Below, one piece after another: positions 1,525-17,995 of a DNA stretch of 36,346 nucleotides. The stretch covers positions 1 through 36,346 of the forward strand of contig JAFXZJ010000058.1 of assembly GCA_017541305.1 (NCBI GenBank), read 5' to 3'. The position numbers were made by a program, and so were the translations under genes. Each line of letters begins with the position of its first letter. The first letter of the stretch is position 1. This stretch comes from Clostridia bacterium (GTDB taxonomy: Bacteria; Bacillota; Clostridia; Christensenellales; CAG-138). The notes below the pieces were generated by a model, which saw only the letters and a list, made by a program, of their open reading frames with translations, searched no databases and was not told the DNA's origin.

Positions 1525-4500
1525 TCAGCGGGTGCTTAGTATCAGCTCGCAGAGCGCGCTCAGGTCGAGCGAGTCTATCGTGCCGTTGCCGTTGACGTCG
1601 GCGGCCAGCCTCTGTTGATCGTTGAAGGTGACGTTGTTGAGCAGGTATGCGCTGAGCAGGCTGACGTCGGCAAACGTGACGAAGCCGTCGCAGTTAACGT
1701 CGCCCCGCAGGAACTCGATGGGAGTCTCCACGGTCACCATAACGACCGTGATCGTGGTGTTATGGTAAATGGGCTGTGTGATGTCGAACTCCATGCCGTT
1801 CACGAAATAGGTGTAAGCATAGCCGTCGGGAGCGGTGGGAGCGGGCACGCAGTCGCCCGCGGCGATCTCGACCGTGTCTGCGTAGTCGCCGGTGAAGGTG
1901 ACGGTGACGGACTGATCCTCGCCGACGATCCTGACCGTGACGGTGCCGAAGGCGATGCCGTCATAGCACACCGTCATCACGTAGGTGCCGTTCACGGAGC
2001 CCGCGTATTCGGGCGCCCAGGAATAGGTGATGTGCGTGCTGGACCATGCCACGTTCGTCACGGCGCCGGAGCGGCTCGAACGGTAGACGATGGAGGTGCC
2101 GGCCATTATGTCGCTCATGCCGAAGCCCTCGTCGTTTTCGGCCACGTAATAGGTGGCGCCGGTGAGCGCGGCCTGCGATACCGCGGGAGCGTAGATATAG
2201 CAGGTGGCGGTGCTGGTCGATACCTTCCATCCGCCGGAATAGGTGAGGTAGAGCTTGGTGGACTGACCGGGGCCGCCGGGGCCGCCGCCCGGGCCGCCGC
2301 CGGGACCGCCGCCGGAAACGGCGGTGCTGATCGTTGCCGCACTGCCGGAGGAGCCGACCTCCCAGCTCTTTGCGGAGGACACGTCGGAGGTGAGGGAGAG
2401 GGTGTATGTGCTGCCATACCAACCGCTCGAGGTCTGGGTGTAGGAAAGATAGTAGTTCACGCCGTCCACGGTGGTGTAGATATGAGCGCCGTCATCCATA
2501 TACCAGGTGTTGGTATCGTTCAGCGTGCCGAAGGTGTAGCCGCCGGATACGCTTGAAAGGCTGCTGGTCACGGCGGAGATCGAAGCGTTTCCGCCAAGGG
2601 TATAGACGGAATTCGCGGCGGAGGTGTTGGTGATGACGTAACGGCTGTTCGCGCCCATGCTCGTTACACGCTCGAACACGTCGGTATCGCCCGCGTCAAG
2701 ATCCGTCCAGGGGGTAGAATCGACGCCCGAGCCGGTGGCCGTGCCGGTCTTTGCGGAGGAAGAGCCGTTAATGTAGAGATAATAGGTGTTGCCCGAAACA
2801 AGCGCGGGATGCGAGAAGATAAGATAGGTCGCGCGGTTGTTCGAGTTGCTGAAATAAGCGGTGGTGCTCTTGAGCACGTTGCCGGAGCTGTCCTTGATCA
2901 CGATCGAATTGCCGCTGTAGATCGAGAGGTTGGTGAACTCCACGTAGATGCCCGCTGTGGGGCTGCCCTGCATCTGATTCATGCCGCAGGCGAGGGTGAC
3001 GCCGCCGTAGAGGGCAAGGGTGTCCTCGGTGTCGAGCGGATCGTTGGAGGTGTTGGAAGCGGAGTAGACCTCCAGGTCGCCGCCGCGGAAGTAACAGCCG
3101 CCGTTGGAATCGACGCCGTCGCCGCCGGAGGTGTAAAGACGGTAGACGCCGCCGTATTCGTTGATGGTAAAGTGATAGTTCGAGGTGTTCTTATTGGCGG
3201 CGTTGATAACGTCGTCGGTGGAATAGACGGTCGCATAGCCGGAATTGAGCACCACGTCGGCGCCCTCGATGCCCTCATAACAGGTGTTGACGGTCATGTG
3301 GATGAGCTCGTTCGAAGCGCCCCTCACGCCGAAGGTGAGCACCTGATCGGCATGCAGGCCGTCGTCGCGGGTCCAGATCTGATAGGTGCCGCCCTCGATG
3401 GTAAGGTCGCCGTCGGAATGGATGGCGTCATCGGGGGTGGACAGGGTGAAGCTGCCGCCGGACAGGGTGTTGGTCAGCTCGGACTTTATGCACTTTGCGC
3501 TGGGGGTGGTGGAAAGATCGCCGTTATACGAGGTGTTCGTATAGCCGTTTGCGCAGGTGATGGTGAAGGTGCCGCCTGAGATATCGTTGTTGAAGCCCGA
3601 AATGCCGTCGCCCGTTGTGGTGACGGTGAATGTGCCGCCGGATATCGTGACGTCGCCCGAGGCCTCGTTGGCGTCCTCGGCCTTTATGCCGTCGCCGACC
3701 GCGGTGATATCGAGCGTGCCGCCGGAGATGTTCACGTCATGCCTTGCGAGTATGCCCTCGTCGGAGGAATCGACCGTGATATCGCCGCCGGTAACGTAAA
3801 TGCTGCCGATCAGGTCGGTATCATCCGCCGCCTTGATCGCGTCGCCGTCGGTGGTGGTGAGGTTGAGAGTGCCGCCGGTGATGTAAAGCTCGTTCTCGGA
3901 GGAGAGCGCGCTGTTGATCGCGTTGACGTTCACCGTGCCGTCCGCAGCGGTGAGGCAGCCGTCGGCGCCGATCTTGACGCCGTTTTTGGCGGCGGCTATC
4001 ACGTTCAGCGTGCCCGTGCCGGCAAGAGTGAGGTTGGCCGCGGTCTTGCCCTTTATAACGGCGCTTTCGGCATAGTACTGGTTGCTGCCGTCGCCGCCGT
4101 CGGCGGTGGGACCGTAGGCGTCGGCATTGTTGAGCGCGGTATCGGCAAGGGTATTCACGGTGCCCGCAAGGGTGTCGATATAGACCTTTGCGGTGGATTC
4201 CTTCTTGATGGTGACAGCCGCGGTGAACTGCGATCTGAGGTTAAGACCGTCAAGGAGTATGGTGGCGTCGTTGGTCGCCTGCTTTTTGACAACGATGTTC
4301 GCGTAATTGCTCTGACCGCTGAAGGCGTAGATGCCGCCCTTCTTTTTGATGCCGATCACAAGCTCATAGCCCGAGGCCACCGTATAGGTGGTGCTGCCGT
4401 CGTCGTTGGCGGTCACGGTCAGCTCGCCCGTGCCCTCGGCGCCGGTGAATTCGGTCTCGGAGGCCTGCTCGATGGCGACGATCTCATAAGTCGTGTCGCT

Positions 4501-4848
4501 GCCGGGATAGACGGTCATGCTGCGGCCGTCCAGCGCGAACGCGGTGTAGCCTATGGAGACCTCGATCAGCGCGGAAGCGCTGCCGCGGGATATGGTGACG
4601 GGCACTATGCCCTTTGCTCCGGGAACGCCGGTGACGGTGACCTGAGCGCCGCTGACCGAGACGGAAGCGACTTCGGTGTTGCCCGAAACGGCTGTCACCG
4701 TGCCGGAGCCGCCCGAAACGGCTATGACCGCGCCCGTGTTGCCCACGGGGGTCTTGGTGAGCGTCAGAGCGTCAGCCGCGCTTACCGGGGGGATTAGCGT
4801 CATCAGCAGGCAAAGCGCCGCGATGAGGCTGAGTATCCGTTTTTTCAT
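1525..4848 (-). CDS. Secreted Cthe_2159-like carbohydrate-binding protein with C-terminal type I dockerin
   Basis: The start at 4848 is chosen because TGGAGG precedes it and because it opens directly into a signal peptide (MKKRILSLIAALCLLM...VSA). The long upstream extension of the frame has no such support. The product is 1107 residues. After an Ig-like segment (about 27-100), residues about 180-540 repeat GGTxxITxxxDGIKA-type rungs. This is the pattern of the parallel beta-helix carbohydrate-binding domain known from Clostridium thermocellum Cthe_2159, which binds acidic polysaccharides. A Gly-Pro linker lies at about 845-865. The last 60 residues are a dockerin with two calcium-loop repeats (DVNCDGFVTFADVSLLSAYL and DVNGNGTIDSLDLSALCELI). 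No cohesin partner is in the window. It probably acts at the cell surface on plant or host glycans. Confidence 0.82.
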   Translation of the reverse strand: MKKRILSLIAALCLLMTLIPPVSAADALTLTKTPVGNTGAVIAVSGGSGTVTAVSGNTEVASVSVSGAQVTVTGVPGAKGIVPVTISRGSASALIEVSIGYTAFALDGRSMTVYPGSDTTYEIVAIEQASETEFTGAEGTGELTVTANDDGSTTYTVASGYELVIGIKKKGGIYAFSGQSNYANIVVKKQATNDATILLDGLNLRSQFTAAVTIKKESTAKVYIDTLAGTVNTLADTALNNADAYGPTADGGDGSNQYYAESAVIKGKTAANLTLAGTGTLNVIAAAKNGVKIGADGCLTAADGTVNVNAINSALSSENELYITGGTLNLTTTDGDAIKAADDTDLIGSIYVTGGDITVDSSDEGILARHDVNISGGTLDITAVGDGIKAEDANEASGDVTISGGTFTVTTTGDGISGFNNDISGGTFTITCANGYTNTSYNGDLSTTPSAKCIKSELTNTLSGGSFTLSTPDDAIHSDGDLTIEGGTYQIWTRDDGLHADQVLTFGVRGASNELIHMTVNTCYEGIEGADVVLNSGYATVYSTDDVINAANKNTSNYHFTINEYGGVYRLYTSGGDGVDSNGGCYFRGGDLEVYSASNTSNDPLDTEDTLALYGGVTLACGMNQMQGSPTAGIYVEFTNLSIYSGNSIVIKDSSGNVLKSTTAYFSNSNNRATYLIFSHPALVSGNTYYLYINGSSSAKTGTATGSGVDSTPWTDLDAGDTDVFERVTSMGANSRYVITNTSAANSVYTLGGNASISAVTSSLSSVSGGYTFGTLNDTNTWYMDDGAHIYTTVDGVNYYLSYTQTSSGWYGSTYTLSLTSDVSSAKSWEVGSSGSAATISTAVSGGGPGGGPGGGPGGPGQSTKLYLTYSGGWKVSTSTATCYIYAPAVSQAALTGATYYVAENDEGFGMSDIMAGTSIVYRSSRSGAVTNVAWSSTHITYSWAPEYAGSVNGTYVMTVCYDGIAFGTVTVRIVGEDQSVTVTFTGDYADTVEIAAGDCVPAPTAPDGYAYTYFVNGMEFDITQPIYHNTTITVVMVTVETPIEFLRGDVNCDGFVTFADVSLLSAYLLNNVTFNDQQRLAADVNGNGTIDSLDLSALCELILSTR

Positions 4849-4902
4849 ATGCATTTCCTCCATTACCCGTGCGCAAAGCGCAGGGCGAATTTGTACATTT
4901 AT

Positions 4903-4937
4903 ATTATAACACCTGTGCGTTTTGCGGGCGGGTACAA
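4903..4937 (-). promoter_or_regulatory. Probable promoter of the dockerin carbohydrate-binding gene
   Basis: A consensus TATAAT lies on the minus strand at 4903-4908, 54 bases before the start codon. The best TTGTAC hexamer (4932-4937) is 23 bases away, which is too far for a standard -35. Only the -10 is convincing. Confidence 0.4.
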
Positions 4938-4968
4938 TCCTGTGCATAGAATTGGGCAAAATTGGGGC

Positions 4969-4995
4969 AAAAAAAGAGCCGCGCATAACGCGGCT
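4969..4995 (-). terminator. Terminator of plsY
   Basis: A 7-bp perfect stem (4977-4983 with 4989-4995) is followed on the minus strand by CTTTTTTT. It lies 14 bases past the plsY stop codon. Confidence 0.85.
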
Positions 4996-5757: not shown

Positions 5758-6774
5758 TCACTGCGGCTTTTTTACGCAGGAGGGGGATTCGTAAAGCTTT
5801 CCGTGCACGAAGTAATTGTATGAGCGGCAGCCCCCGGCGCAGCGATAGCCCTCGGGGCAGGAGGCGCAGGCGCCGGTGAGAAGTTCCTTTTTGAACCCGC
5901 GGTTGTAAGCGAAGGCGTTCTCGTCCTCCCATATTGCGGCAAGCGTCTTTTCGCGCAGGTTCCCTTCGATGAAATGCTCGTCATACATCGATTCACAGCC
6001 GCGCACGTTCCCCACGCTGTCGATACCTATCGAGGTCAGCCCCGCGCGGCAGCCGGTGAAGGGGGCGTAAGCATCGATCCTTCCGCGCAGATGCCCCTCG
6101 TGCTCGGTAAAATAGCCTATGTTGTCGGCAGTGCCCATTGCAAAGGGCGCATCATACATATGCGACACGACAAAATCGATCACCCACTTGACGTCAAACC
6201 GATGATCGACGCCCTCCTTTGCGTTGCCCATGGGCGAACAGGCCTGTATCTGCCAGGCGAATATGCGCTTGCTTTTGAGGACTTCGTAAAGCTCCTCAAG
6301 CAGGGGCGCGTTTTCGGAATTGAGCGTGGTGATCACGGAGGCCGGTATGCCGTTTGCGATCAGCGTGTCGATCGCGCAAAGCGCTCTCTTAAAGCTCCCC
6401 TCCGAGCGGTATTTGTCGTGCACGCGCTCCGGCCCGTCGATCGATACGGCAACGGATTCGATATTCACCGCCTTCAGGCGCGCGATATGCTCCTCCTTGA
6501 AAAGAAAGCCGTTGGTTATGACGGCCACCCGCACCCCGCGGGAGGTTAGGCGGGCGATTATCTTATCCCAATCGGGGCGCATGAAAACCTCGCCGCCTAT
6601 CATCGAAACGCGGCGGCAGCCGAGCGCGGCAAGCTGATCGGCAACCGACAGGCACTCTTCGGTGGTCAGCTCGTTCTCACGGGCCCTGCCTGCCTTGGAG
6701 CCGCAGTAGGCGCAGGAAAAACAGCATGCAAGGGTTATCTCCCACACGCAGGAACGCAGACGGAAGCGGCTCAT
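5758..6774 (-). CDS. Radical SAM enzyme with SPASM domain, probable peptide maturase
   Basis: The 338-residue product begins at ATG 6774, which overlaps the stop of the upstream gene as ATGA, so the two are translationally coupled. Residues 17-24 carry the radical SAM cluster motif C-x3-C-x2-C (ACCFSCAYCG). A GGE motif typical of the SAM-binding barrel follows (MIGGEVFMRPDW). The C-terminal part has the cysteine pattern of a SPASM domain, including C303, C306, C312, C316 and C333, which holds auxiliary iron-sulfur clusters. This architecture is known from enzymes that modify ribosomally made peptides (AlbA, PqqE and anaerobic sulfatase maturase relatives). The coupled upstream gene encodes repeated VYAGP motifs and is the obvious candidate substrate. 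The substrate link is inference; the enzyme class is firm. Confidence 0.9.
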   Translation of the reverse strand: MSRFRLRSCVWEITLACCFSCAYCGSKAGRARENELTTEECLSVADQLAALGCRRVSMIGGEVFMRPDWDKIIARLTSRGVRVAVITNGFLFKEEHIARLKAVNIESVAVSIDGPERVHDKYRSEGSFKRALCAIDTLIANGIPASVITTLNSENAPLLEELYEVLKSKRIFAWQIQACSPMGNAKEGVDHRFDVKWVIDFVVSHMYDAPFAMGTADNIGYFTEHEGHLRGRIDAYAPFTGCRAGLTSIGIDSVGNVRGCESMYDEHFIEGNLREKTLAAIWEDENAFAYNRGFKKELLTGACASCPEGYRCAGGCRSYNYFVHGKLYESPSCVKKPQ

Positions 6775-7496
6775 TGGAGCTTTCTCCCGCATTCGTGGCA
6801 GAATTTCTGATCTTTTTCGACTATGACGCCGCATTCGGGGCAGTGTTCCGCAACCGGGATGGGAGTGCCGCATTCGGCGCAGAATTTAAAGCCGTCGGGC
6901 ACCCTGGCTCCGCAGCCGGGACATACGCCCGGGGTCGTGTCGGCGGGCTTTGTCATGAAGGCCGGACGCGTATCGGGCGAAGCCATCACCAATCCGCATA
7001 ATCCGGGAGGGATCTCGGGCATCGTTATGGGCTTGCCGTCGTTATCCTCGGGCTCCTCGGGAGCGGGACCGGCATAGACGTCCTGCACATCGGCTTCACC
7101 GCGCTTGTTCGCAAACCATTCGGGGCCGGCATATACTAATGCCATGGGCTGCCGCATCATCTCGGGGCCTGCATATACGGCGCTGATAAGCTCCTCATTT
7201 CGCCTGTCGGGATCGGGACCGGCATAGACCCGCCCCATGCGCGGGCGCTTCTTCATCCTGTCGGGACCTGCATATACGGGCGCTATGGGCGGCTCCTCCT
7301 CCGCGAGGGAATCGGGATATCCGGGCTCGGGATCTTTAAGCGTCGGGCAGGCGTAAACGGTGTGGATCTCGGGCTCCTCATCGCCCTGAGGCGCAGGATA
7401 CTCGGGCTTTTGAGGCTTTTCGGGGGCCTCGTCGTCCTTCTTGAAAACGCGCGGCGCGGCGTAAAGGGCCGCTATCGGCGTACGCTTTTTGAACAT
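6771..7496 (-). CDS. VYAGP-repeat protein with C-terminal double zinc ribbon, candidate RiPP-like substrate
   Basis: The start at 7496 has AAAGGAG nine bases upstream, and the product is 241 residues. Seven pentapeptides of the form V/L-Y-A-x-P occur at residues 11, 47, 74, 90, 107, 121 and 140. The first two read LYAAP and VYACP and the last five are exactly VYAGP. They are separated by 9-31 residues of charged, proline-rich, poorly conserved sequence. Codons differ between copies (gtc or gta, tat, gcc or gca, ggt or ggc), so the conservation is at peptide level. Four of the five exact copies are followed by Asp or Glu. The C-terminus has two zinc ribbons: C192/C195/C206/C209 and C219/C222/C233/C236. 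No signal peptide or membrane segment is visible. It is co-transcribed and translationally coupled with the radical SAM/SPASM gene. I recognise the zinc ribbons only; the role as a modified multi-core substrate is inference. Confidence 0.85.
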   Translation of the reverse strand: MFKKRTPIAALYAAPRVFKKDDEAPEKPQKPEYPAPQGDEEPEIHTVYACPTLKDPEPGYPDSLAEEEPPIAPVYAGPDRMKKRPRMGRVYAGPDPDRRNEELISAVYAGPEMMRQPMALVYAGPEWFANKRGEADVQDVYAGPAPEEPEDNDGKPITMPEIPPGLCGLVMASPDTRPAFMTKPADTTPGVCPGCGARVPDGFKFCAECGTPIPVAEHCPECGVIVEKDQKFCHECGRKLQ

Positions 7497-7527: not shown

Positions 7528-7556
7528 ATTCTATCACAGACCGTGACCTTTGTAAA
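7528..7556 (-). promoter_or_regulatory. Promoter of the VYAGP-repeat / radical SAM operon
   Basis: Minus-strand TTTACA (7551-7556), a 17-base spacer, and TAGAAT (7528-7533), 32 bases before the start codon. Confidence 0.65.
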
Positions 7557-7564
7557 TGCATTTT

Positions 7565-7610
7565 GAACGAAGTGATGTCGGTTTTTTCGAACGAAGTGAT
7601 GGCGGTTTTT
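7565..7610. repeat. Two direct repeats upstream of the VYAGP operon promoter
   Basis: GAACGAAGTGATG followed by CGG and a T run occurs twice (7565-7586 and 7589-7610) at a 24-base period. The pair ends eight bases upstream of the predicted -35 hexamer. It could be an activator site or a dispersed repeat. Confidence 0.6.
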
Positions 7611-7644
7611 ACCGTATGTTGCAGACAAACTCTTCCGCATCAAT

Positions 7645-7675
7645 AAAAAACCGGAGCCCTGCATCGGCTCCGGTT
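7645..7675 (-). terminator. Terminator of the clan CD protease operon
   Basis: A perfect 10-bp stem (7649-7658 with 7666-7675) is followed on the minus strand by a T run. It lies nine bases after the lipoprotein stop. Confidence 0.85.
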
Positions 7676-7683
7676 TATGATCG

Positions 7684-9000: not shown

Positions 9001-10089
9001 TTATCCTATTTTTTGAAAAACATCGCCGATACAATATAAATCATTCATACTTATATTTGTGCAGGCATAACGCAAACAGTACTGAATCGTTGCTCCGCCT
9101 TTTACGCCAGAAAAGAAGCTATTTATCCAAGCATTGGCTTCCTTGATGTTGATAACTCTTTTCGTTCCGAGAACAAAATGAGCTCCTTTGTTGAAAGTCT
9201 CTTGGACTAAATTGTGACCATTACTGCTGCATCCTGTACAGCATCCTACATATAACACACATTTGGCTTTGCATAATGAATTGTTTGACAGCGATCCAAC
9301 AGCATATTCATTGCCGGAATTATAAGGATTGATGTCAGCGGATGTTGCTTTAATCCAACCGGTGTAACCACCGGTACTATTCGTAAAGACAAGCTGAGAA
9401 CAGTCGCCATGACCATAATACAAGAACACACTGTCGGCCTGTAAGTTTATATATCCGCTGTAAGCAGATTTGTTTTGTGTTGCACTTGTGCTAAAACCCA
9501 AACTTGTCATAGATGTACTAAAAGTATTAGCTGGGCCGGAAGTACTAAAGCCAGGATAAACAAAATAGAACATATCAGCTAGCCCCTGGTAACATGTTTC
9601 AAAAGACCAACATGCATTATAATGTGAACCTAACTGTGACAATACGATCGAATTGGAGCTTCTTACGACATAGTTTGTTCCGATTTTGATTTGGTAGGTT
9701 CCGGCGCGAACGCCGGTTGTTATTCTGGTAATTGTAAAAGCCTGATTTGTATTGTTGTTATTTCTGGAAGAGAGAATAACATTGCTGCCTGAGACAGTCA
9801 GAACAAGGTTGCTGTTTTGTTTGGACTTAATGACATATAAGCCGTTATTGGTTCTTTCGAGAATCCAACGATAATTGTTCGCGGACGAGAAGGACGACAG
9901 GGATAGATTAACCATGGCTGGAGTTACACCACGCAGATACTTGCTGTTGCCATTGTTTCTTAAATAATAACTTGTTCCGTTGGAAAGGCCTCTAACATCT
10001 TGACTGTCTGCTTGAACGTTGCTTATAAGTGTAAATAGAAGCAAGAGAGATACGAGGAAACATAAAAACTTCTTTGCACGGATTTTCAT
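9001..10089 (-). CDS. Secreted ricin-type lectin plus clan CD (caspase/CHAT-like) protease domain
   Basis: The 362-residue product has a signal peptide (about 1-27). Residues about 35-165 form a ricin B-type beta-trefoil (YYLRNNGNSKYLRG, then NNYRWILE, YVIKSKQNSN and similar strands), which usually binds sugars. The C-terminal half shows the two signatures of clan CD cysteine peptidases. A hydrophobic strand ends in His-Gly (VFLYYGHGD, His227). A second strand ends in Gly-Cys (VLYVGCCTG, Cys283), like the CxTG of CHAT domains. A ThrLys-rich tail follows. The gene is visibly AT-rich compared with its neighbours, suggesting acquisition by transfer. It is the first gene of an operon with a strong promoter and AGGAGG. 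The lectin call is fairly sure; protease activity is inference from the His/Cys dyad. Confidence 0.72.
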   Translation of the reverse strand: MKIRAKKFLCFLVSLLLLFTLISNVQADSQDVRGLSNGTSYYLRNNGNSKYLRGVTPAMVNLSLSSFSSANNYRWILERTNNGLYVIKSKQNSNLVLTVSGSNVILSSRNNNNTNQAFTITRITTGVRAGTYQIKIGTNYVVRSSNSIVLSQLGSHYNACWSFETCYQGLADMFYFVYPGFSTSGPANTFSTSMTSLGFSTSATQNKSAYSGYINLQADSVFLYYGHGDCSQLVFTNSTGGYTGWIKATSADINPYNSGNEYAVGSLSNNSLCKAKCVLYVGCCTGCSSNGHNLVQETFNKGAHFVLGTKRVINIKEANAWINSFFSGVKGGATIQYCLRYACTNISMNDLYCIGDVFQKIG

Positions 10090-16678: not shown

Positions 16679-17995
16679 TCACAGGCCCATGGCCAGGCGC
16701 ATAACGAGCAGCGCGTCCTCGGAATTGACGGTGCCGTCGCCGTTGAAGTCGGCAAGCGCCTCCTGCTCGGGAGTGAGCTCGACAAGGCCCATGGCCGCGC
16801 GGAGTATTATGAGCGCGTCGACGAGCGTGACCTCGCCGTCGCCGTCAACGTCGCCTATAACGGGCGTGGGCTCGGGACCGGGGCCGGGCTCGTCCGCGCC
16901 GGTGAAGCGGGCGATGACCGTGCCAAAGTCTCCATCGGTCAGATACCAGCGGGCGGCGGTCGACAAAAGATCGCCCTGCTCGTCATACCATCCTAAAAAA
17001 TCAAAGCCGTCCTCGGGATATGCGTCAACAAAATACGAGCTGCCGTCCCATTCGGATCCGATGGCGCAGCCTATGGATCCATGCCCTTCCGCGCTGATCT
17101 TATCCAGCATGAGATCGTTGTTTCTCAAATCGAGGTCCTTGATGTCATTGTAAACGCATTGCAGTTGAGCCAGCCTGACGCAGGCGGAAACGTCGAGCTC
17201 GGTGAGCAGGGTTAAGTCGCAGTTAAGGGACAGGAGCTTTGTATTTTTCGAAAGGTCAAGAGCGCTTATGTCGTTAAGACCGCAATTCAGGAACATAAGA
17301 TCGGGATTGTTTGAAAGATCCAATTCGGTAAGCCCACAGTTTTCGCACATTAAATACCAAAGCTTGGGACAGCTGGATAAATCAAGAGTTCCTACTGGAT
17401 TTCCCTCCATTTCGAGAAACTCAAGCTCCGGATTATAAGTGAGATCGAGTTCGGTTATTCCGCAATAATAGCATTGAAGCCAATTCAATGCAGGGCACTC
17501 GGAAACGTCCAACTCCGTAATGTTTTTGTTATCCTGCATATTAAGCGTCTCGAGCTTTGGACAATCGAGCACACTGACCGAGTTGAGCTTATTGTAGGAA
17601 CAGTCGACAAGAAGAAGCTCGGAGCAGCCGTCGAGGGTCAACCATCCAACAAGGTCGAATTCGCCGCAAAGAACAGTCGTCAGACGAAGCTCGCCTTCGA
17701 CCTCTTCAAAAAAGAACCCCTGATAATAATAATCACCATCTTCCCCCAATAAGACCGTCCACGTCTCCGGATCTCCCATATCATAGTTGCTGCCGAACAT
17801 TTTTGTGCCGTTTTTTACTCCACTCTCATCTTCGGATTCCAGAAAAAACATTACGGATAAGACGTCGAAGAAGTTATATTCCGCCGTTCCGGGATCGCTT
17901 CGGACGGGAACAGCGGCCAGCGAGAGCACGGGCAGGGACAGAGAGAGCATAACAGCGATCAGCGCTGCGGCGATAAAACGATGGGTCTGTTTCAT
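16679..17995 (-). CDS. Secreted leucine-rich repeat protein with FLGWY module and type I dockerin
   Basis: The 438-residue protein has a signal peptide (1-28), then an N-terminal cap with GDPETW (74-79). Leucine-rich repeats of the TELDLSxNPxLxxLxC type span about 125-295. A beta module follows with SAEGHGSIG (301-309) and FLGWYDEQG (333-341), ending in ARF. The dockerin is at 381-438 with two calcium loops (DVDGDGEVTLVDALIILRAA and DFNGDGTVNSEDALLVMRLA). A proline-rich linker separates the dockerin. It is likely a surface or scaffold-bound binding protein. Paralogues of its LRR/FLGWY part are encoded at 27156 and 35454. A promoter and AAGGAG support the start. The ligand is unknown. Confidence 0.88.
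   Translation of the reverse strand: MKQTHRFIAAALIAVMLSLSLPVLSLAAVPVRSDPGTAEYNFFDVLSVMFFLESEDESGVKNGTKMFGSNYDMGDPETWTVLLGEDGDYYYQGFFFEEVEGELRLTTVLCGEFDLVGWLTLDGCSELLLVDCSYNKLNSVSVLDCPKLETLNMQDNKNITELDVSECPALNWLQCYYCGITELDLTYNPELEFLEMEGNPVGTLDLSSCPKLWYLMCENCGLTELDLSNNPDLMFLNCGLNDISALDLSKNTKLLSLNCDLTLLTELDVSACVRLAQLQCVYNDIKDLDLRNNDLMLDKISAEGHGSIGCAIGSEWDGSSYFVDAYPEDGFDFLGWYDEQGDLLSTAARWYLTDGDFGTVIARFTGADEPGPGPEPTPVIGDVDGDGEVTLVDALIILRAAMGLVELTPEQEALADFNGDGTVNSEDALLVMRLAMGL

Follow-up and report, generated by a model that had tools for sequence, protein, structure and literature searches.

Does a radical SAM enzyme encoded beside a protein rich in VYAGP pentapeptides modify that protein, and by which reaction? 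The question is raised by two minus-strand genes within a stretch of 36,346 nucleotides from a Clostridia bacterium (contig JAFXZJ010000058.1; the whole stretch is hereafter the window). The first gene (6771-7496) encodes the putative substrate P0001, a protein of 241 residues that contains seven [VL]YAxP motifs and ends in two zinc ribbons. The second (5758-6774) encodes P0002, a radical SAM/SPASM enzyme of 338 residues matching the Pfam families Radical_SAM and SPASM. As the first-pass annotation had stated, the stop codon of P0001 overlaps the start codon of P0002 in an ATGA, four minus-strand bases common to both genes (6771-6774). The motifs of P0001 are LYAAP (7452-7466), VYACP (7344-7358) and five copies of VYAGP (7263-7277, 7215-7229, 7164-7178, 7122-7136 and 7065-7079), all on the minus strand. 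In 20,000 shuffles of the residues of P0001, [VL]YAxP was absent 19,764 times, occurred once in 235 cases and twice in a single case, against seven occurrences observed. The repeats are thus real and far above what composition would give. It had also been argued that differing codons in the five VYAGP copies point to selection on the peptide. The codons do differ for Val, Ala and Gly, whereas all five copies use TAT for Tyr and CCC for Pro. Across genomes, however, the matched DNA strings vary at the codon third positions of all five residues, and such variation is the better evidence of selection on the peptide.

The enzyme carries the signatures from which it had been recognized. The ligands of the radical SAM cluster, C17-x3-C21-x2-C24 (6703-6726, minus strand), the GGE motif and a pattern of seven SPASM cysteines (C242, C260, C303, C306, C312, C316 and C333; 5776-6051, minus strand) were all found. 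The cluster ligands and the SPASM cysteines are conserved in orthologues. Among the 75 enzyme ORFs extracted by pattern from 80 orthologous loci (those of L070, L074, L081, L084 and L095 were missed), CxxxCxxCGS occurs in all 75 and the seven-cysteine pattern in 74, the sole other ORF (L056) having unknown bases at those positions. The predicted structure of P0002 has a mean pLDDT of 73.2 and a pTM of 0.78, with pLDDT below 50 at residues 179-191, 218-242 and 311-338.

The association of the two genes is widely conserved. Among 151 related genomes, 19 close copies of P0002 were found, its own included (E of 4.2e-123 or better), and two remote copies besides. The enzyme is present in 10 of the 12 other genomes of its genus, and the two genomes lacking it are 61% and 53% complete. 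A YAxP-repeat protein lies directly upstream of 17 of the 18 other close copies, the 18th (L010) being at a contig end. A scan of genome contigs matched 215 stretches, 208 of which encode a relative. The best 80 of these 208 relatives, 64-77% identical, define the orthologous locus set, some records being shared with the 151-genome set; their titles name Clostridia, Lachnospiraceae, Oscillospiraceae, Blautia, Mediterraneibacter, Ruminococcus and others, many of them from the rumen. Immediately upstream of the enzyme, an ORF with at least one relaxed motif is found in 77 of the 80 loci; upstream motifs number at least two in 72 loci, at least three in 61 and at least five in 23. The exceptions to the pairing are a contig end (L032), a locus with seven motifs located 157 bp away (L086) and one with none upstream (L073). 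A motif protein is likewise present at all of L118-L123, six additional close loci that come from two other families; that of L120 has a single motif and that of L119 is encoded behind, not before, the enzyme. Two loci, L046 and L088, have two motif proteins each, in tandem.

Away from the enzyme gene, the repeats are rare. DNA encoding VYAGP[ED] was matched in 37 of the 151 related genomes. Two or more matches close together occurred at eight places, all of them, by eye, at the enzyme gene; the remaining matches are single and scattered, and the reversed pattern likewise gives scattered singles. As suggested by the first-pass annotation, proteins with several motifs were counted beside the enzyme and elsewhere in the 80 loci. 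Non-adjacent ORFs of at least 60 residues carry at least one relaxed motif in 60 cases out of 8164, and two or more [VL]YAxP in a single one, which is the second partner of L046, versus 64 of the 168 adjacent ORFs, counted in all frames. The proposed coupling of the repeat protein to a SPASM enzyme is therefore conserved, and the opposite situation, VYAGP proteins mostly devoid of a radical SAM neighbour, was not seen in the 151 genomes or the 80 loci, the search for lone repeats having covered genomes of P0002's own order. The idea that VYAGP is an enzyme-independent repeat was rejected, since in these genomes and loci it clusters only at the enzyme gene.

Which positions of the motif matter can be judged from the partner proteins. 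Over 82 partner ORFs, including two later judged spurious (L033_b0 and L039_b0), one position was freed at a time, so that the counted sites already match four of the five letters. The central residue of V?AGP is Tyr 190 times and His once, and the last residue of VYAG? is Pro 190 times and Leu once. The other positions are more tolerant: V 190, A 18, L 3 and I 1 before the Tyr (position -1); A 190, M 15, N 8, G 6 and one each of D, S and Y at +1; G 190, A 21, C 9, S 8, P 7 and V 3 at +2. M, I or F usually occupies position -4, and Y/M/F and M/F are preferred at +5 and +6, respectively. The fixed points of the aligned motifs are the Tyr and the Pro at +3, while their neighbours vary. Gly at +1 is absent from P0001, all motifs of which are XYA, and VYGGP occurs six times among the family partners. 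The recognition sequence proposed for P0002 spans some 11 residues and reads [MIF]-x-x-V-Y-[A>M,N,G]-[G>A,C,S,P]-P-x-[YMF]-[MF].

The partners have other shared features, which bear on how the enzyme could find its substrate. In P0001, the two zinc ribbons span residues 191-240 (6777-6926, minus strand; Pfam Zn_Ribbon_1 and DZR), and they had been put forward as a recognition element. A zinc-ribbon-like cysteine pattern is found in 65 of the 80 partners. As the other 15 lack it (two being truncated at contig ends and one, L063, carrying an FHA domain instead), the ribbon was rejected as a general recognition element and this part of the initial proposal is weakened. A second conserved element, loosely Y-P-[ED]-N/S-[YF], is commoner than the ribbon: 75 of the 80 partners contain its YP core, whereas 200 shuffles gave 46.8 on average and never more than 58. 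Its likely copy in P0001 is YPDSLA (7302-7319, minus strand). A short basic, amphipathic-looking stretch (FKNLFKK or ARLFGK type) was also noticed in 37 of the 80 partners with a loose pattern and no chance control; it is perhaps a membrane or partner anchor. P0001 itself apparently stays in the cytosol, no signal sequence being visible by eye.

The second element invites a different view of the repeats, in which the VYAGP motifs would be docking sites for the enzyme and the modified residue would lie elsewhere in the partner, for instance in Y-P-[ED]-N, or in a third protein. The frequency of the YP core fits with this idea, as does the existence of many tyrosines outside the motifs, since those inside account for 333 of the 695 in the 82 ORFs (the two spurious ones included). 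However, the Tyr is invariant inside the motif while the flanks drift, and a copy number that varies from 1 to 9 per partner is rather typical of repeated targets, less so of docking sites. Moreover, in the PlpXY system it is the homologous site that becomes modified, as described in passages of PMC10533398. A docking role is thus held to be distinctly improbable.

To what kind of enzyme does P0002 belong? Its best NCBIfam model is TIGR04103 (nif11-class maturase 3), which we take to be equivalent to IPR026482, with 225.8 bits versus a cut-off of 725. Then come TIGR03913 (GDL), with 202.2 bits versus 591.75, and MftC (TIGR03962), with 143.3 bits versus 265. For comparison, a Nostoc TIGR04103 enzyme scores 853.1 bits against its own model, and an Aureibacter enzyme, at 534.9 bits, is just below the TIGR03913 cut-off of 591.75. 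Searching plasmids with tblastn gave 19 named relatives at 26-39% identity. A viral origin was considered and rejected, since no relatives were found in viral contigs.

In a maximum-likelihood tree of 50 rows, three clades were recovered. The YAxP enzymes form one (support 100/100), the YG group together with an Agathobacter enzyme a second (100/99), and the TIGR04103, GDL and Tropicibacter enzymes a third (100/100). Their union, a superclade of 40 rows, is supported at 100/98 and leaves outside MftC, NirJ and a looser group. A quick tree gave the same three clades, with a support of 96 for the union; the branching order among the three is left without resolution. In the 50-row tree, the long-branch rows L149 and L153 were left out and L154-L156 added; L095 is absent from both trees. 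PlpX itself is also absent, and with the Nostoc TIGR04103 enzyme as its stand-in, a common ancestry of P0002 and the TIGR04103 enzymes, from which MftC and NirJ are excluded, is supported at 100/98. Four residues, Q175, Q177, Y221 and G250, accompany this grouping: all 37 superclade rows compared have them, and none of 12 other rows does.

The place of MftC in the tree bears on the possibility that the motif Tyr undergoes some other radical reaction, such as a C-C or C-O cross-link to a neighbouring residue, a Calpha-Cbeta cleavage or a mycofactocin-like bond between Val and Tyr. MftC, also a SPASM enzyme, acts on a Val-Tyr pair, and SPASM enzymes as a class act variously on aromatic residues, according to passages of PMC8326336. 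The V-Y pair of the motif recalls the C-terminal VY of MftA, and MftC is the third-best NCBIfam match of P0002. However, MftC lies outside the 40-row superclade and, unlike in the VYAGP system, its target is the C-terminal VY of a short peptide and MftB and MftD are found beside it. MftC requires this C-terminal Tyr, which argues against a mycofactocin-like reaction at internal VYAGP sites. As for cross-links, three-residue cyclophane RiPPs need a beta-carbon on the third residue after the aromatic one, whereas position +2 is Gly in 190 of the 238 VYA?P sites. Finally, where partners of the sister clades were found, they resemble splicease sites. Another reaction at the motif Tyr is therefore considered rather unlikely.

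These sister partners deserve description. An X-Y-[G/A/M]-type partner was found for 12 of 18 sister enzyme rows. Beside the Nostoc enzyme, it is a Nif11 precursor ending SIALYGLPPELF (ALYGLPPELF), in which LYGLP is also found in a PlpXY splice tag listed in PMC10533398. In Azospirillum (three records) and Aureibacter, 11 of 11 peptides annotated DUF1843 have [LPM]-Y-[GAM] near their start. As for P0001 and P0002, the partner genes of these TIGR03913 enzymes lie directly upstream, the sites are of the X-Y-[GAM] type (LYGG, LYAA, MYMA) and the enzymes belong to the same superclade. There, however, one site is carried by each of two or three small peptides, and a CxxC..CxxC ribbon-like extension, seen by eye, is at the C-terminus of the enzyme, whereas in the VYAGP pair the ribbon is on the substrate. 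In Pfam, this extension gives a sub-threshold zf-ChsH2 match in the Azospirillum enzyme and none of that kind in Aureibacter. Fused segments of this kind were seen by eye at the C-terminus of the L113 and L115 enzymes and at the N-terminus of that of L116, with weak Pfam support.

The YG-repeat enzymes of Clostridia and other Bacillota (L124-L131 and L154-L156) belong to the same superclade and have an xYG or KYAAP partner directly upstream in 7 of 11 loci. Their open frames, unlike that of P0002, run to about 480-550 residues and carry an extra C-terminal region of TPR-like appearance (by eye); unlike P0001, their partners often have Lys, Leu or Phe before the Tyr. The partners of L124 and L125 have three YG sites each (FYGIK, LYGIEP). 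ORFs of 316-337 residues carry nine xYG[VIA]P beside L126, ten KYGYP beside L130 and seven KYAAP beside L154, and are candidates for heavily spliced proteins. The precursors of L155 and L156 have single AYG sites (TAYGIARP, LAYGVP) and leaders that look NHLP-like by eye. Because the KYAAP enzyme of L154 groups with those of L126 and L130 (99/97), Gly and Ala at +1 appear to interchange between related enzymes. For six sister rows, five of the 12 in the YG clade (L127, L128, L129, L131 and the Agathobacter plasmid locus L114) and Tropicibacter L116 in the other clade, no clear XY[GA] partner was found in the flanks covered, and the strings noticed were single and chance-like. In the looser group outside the superclade, two of the four loci examined (L132 and L137) have upstream ORFs, lipoprotein-like by eye, that carry VYGPP; a further radical SAM group may act at X-Y-G too.

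The system to which these comparisons lead is PlpXY. Passages of PMC10533398 report that it acts at XYG, the natural sites being MYG and LYG, and removes a tyramine equivalent (C8H9NO, -135.0757 Da), that the carbonyl of the preceding residue becomes joined to the remaining Tyr carbonyl, and that a ten-residue tag is acted on without a leader. PlpX (WP_019503880.1) is described as a SPASM enzyme of IPR026482 that works with PlpY (PMC11002830). P0002 and P0001 resemble this system in that a SPASM radical SAM enzyme of the same superclade, judged by the Nostoc stand-in, is associated with X-Y-small-residue sites, several of which may occur per substrate. On the other hand, P0002 is far under the TIGR04103 cut-off, the VYAGP family has no conserved PlpY-like neighbour, the sites of P0001 have Ala and not Gly after the Tyr with Pro fixed at +3, and the substrate is a zinc-ribbon protein without a Nif11 leader. 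Indeed, Pfam and NCBIfam scans gave no match in P0001 to a Nif11 or nitrile-hydratase-like leader, and the Pfam scan none to DUF1843. We know of no counterpart in PlpXY of the [YMF][MF] preference at +5/+6. The score, the missing +1 Gly of P0001, the neighbour and the leader were all counted against a splicease reaction. P0002 is not classified as a PlpX-type member, given its score below the TIGR04103 cut-off, the departure of its sites from strict XYG and the lack of the leader. As a third branch, it probably works like a PlpX-type splicease nonetheless.

Given the ancestry of the enzyme and the likeness of the sites, a splicease reaction at V-Y-A-G-P is our best guess. P0002 would be a splicease-like enzyme and P0001 its dedicated multi-site substrate, spliced at each V-Y, a reading to which we give a probability of roughly 60%. 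After binding the motif, P0002 would abstract a hydrogen from its Tyr, the tyramine portion of which would be removed. The carbonyl of the preceding Val would then be joined to the remaining Tyr carbonyl, yielding an alpha-keto-beta-amino residue with a change of -135.08 Da per site. It is by analogy that we infer a modification of the Tyr, hydrogen abstraction and splicing at VYAGP. Up to seven ketoamides could be formed per P0001, and the modified protein would stay in the cell. Splicease products are protease inhibitors according to passages of PMC11117315 and PMC10373908. With such electrophilic ketoamides, the function of P0001 might be regulated protease inhibition or covalent assembly.

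A variant compatible with splicing is that P0001 is a classical RiPP precursor, whose multiple cores would later be excised and leave the cell as short ketoamide peptides. The median spacing of 20 residues between motifs would suit such cores, and spliceotides are reported as protease inhibitors in PMC11117315. The surroundings of the pair speak against it. Neighbours were clustered over up to eight genes per side, as far as the contigs reach. The enzyme family was recovered at 69 of the 80 loci, those where the crude gene caller worked, and the partner at 33, its sequence drifting too fast for BLAST. The next families occur at 14 loci at most each, are unrelated, and lie at scattered places on both strands. 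Within eight genes on either side, to the ends of the contigs of these 80 loci, no third gene is conserved, whether transporter, protease, recognition protein or PlpY-like neighbour. The earlier remark that no transporter or protease is adjacent was thereby extended to the family. A cluster with export was rejected on the same flanks: the expected leader and core arrangement, accompanied by export or protease genes, is not seen. No known leader is present, and most partners have zinc ribbons or an FHA domain. Export of excised cores is thus judged improbable. A 71-residue ORF beside the Nostoc enzyme, PlpY-like by position only, had no match in the present genome, in a search made without a positive control.

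Returning to splicing within intact proteins, how new would such a system be? The first-pass annotation had spoken of a candidate new peptide-modification system. The conserved coupling sustains the system, but "new" overstates the case, given that the enzyme belongs to the splicease-like superclade. The literature search found no account of VYAGP in this sense, its sole mention being unrelated (gels), and nothing related to YAGP by title and abstract among the matches listed; the main splicease survey, that of Scott et al. (Chem, 2022), with 939 predicted systems according to PMC10533398, was outside this search and may list the family earlier. Judged from the sequences, the system is unusual in having Ala at +1 and a fixed Pro, in how many sites it has and in its substrates, which resemble resident zinc-ribbon or FHA proteins. 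It may tentatively be imagined, with more doubt than confidence, that a splicease branch which reads V-Y-A-G-P in place of X-Y-G and requires neither leader nor PlpY carries out a widespread, housekeeping-like modification in gut and rumen Clostridia, placing several backbone ketoamides in zinc-ribbon or FHA proteins that remain and function within the cell and are not secreted natural products. If so, radical enzymes would commonly edit protein backbones in the gut microbiome, and resident cell proteins, not only exported peptides, would be among their targets. Ketoamides could also be placed in proteins with a system of just two genes, which would act at several sites and read another recognition sequence, VYAGP.

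The DNA around the pair suggests that P0001 and P0002 form their own transcription unit. A sigma-70-like promoter, TTTACA-17-TAGAAT with a TG (7528-7556, minus strand), is a consensus match only; an AAGGAG ribosome site, seen by eye, precedes the ATG of P0001 at 7496; and a terminator-like hairpin, also a consensus match (7648-7676, minus strand), separates the pair from the upstream gene. Such matches are little above shuffles in the region, with four promoter-like sites versus a shuffle mean of 2.1 and four terminator-like sites versus 3.4. Between the hairpin and the ATG, a two-copy direct repeat around CATCACTTCGTTC was noticed by eye (7557-7611, minus strand); a 23-base piece of it has no second genomic copy within three mismatches. 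The third gene upstream of the pair (9001-10089, minus strand) encodes a secreted-looking protein with a ricin-type lectin match, the family of which does not recur beside orthologous pairs in the flanks of the 80 loci. Its YGHG ... GCCTG pattern is, we presume, reminiscent of caspase-like peptidases. Two further minus-strand genes of the window (1525-4986 and 16679-17995) encode large secreted-looking proteins whose C-termini, by eye, are presumably dockerin-like.
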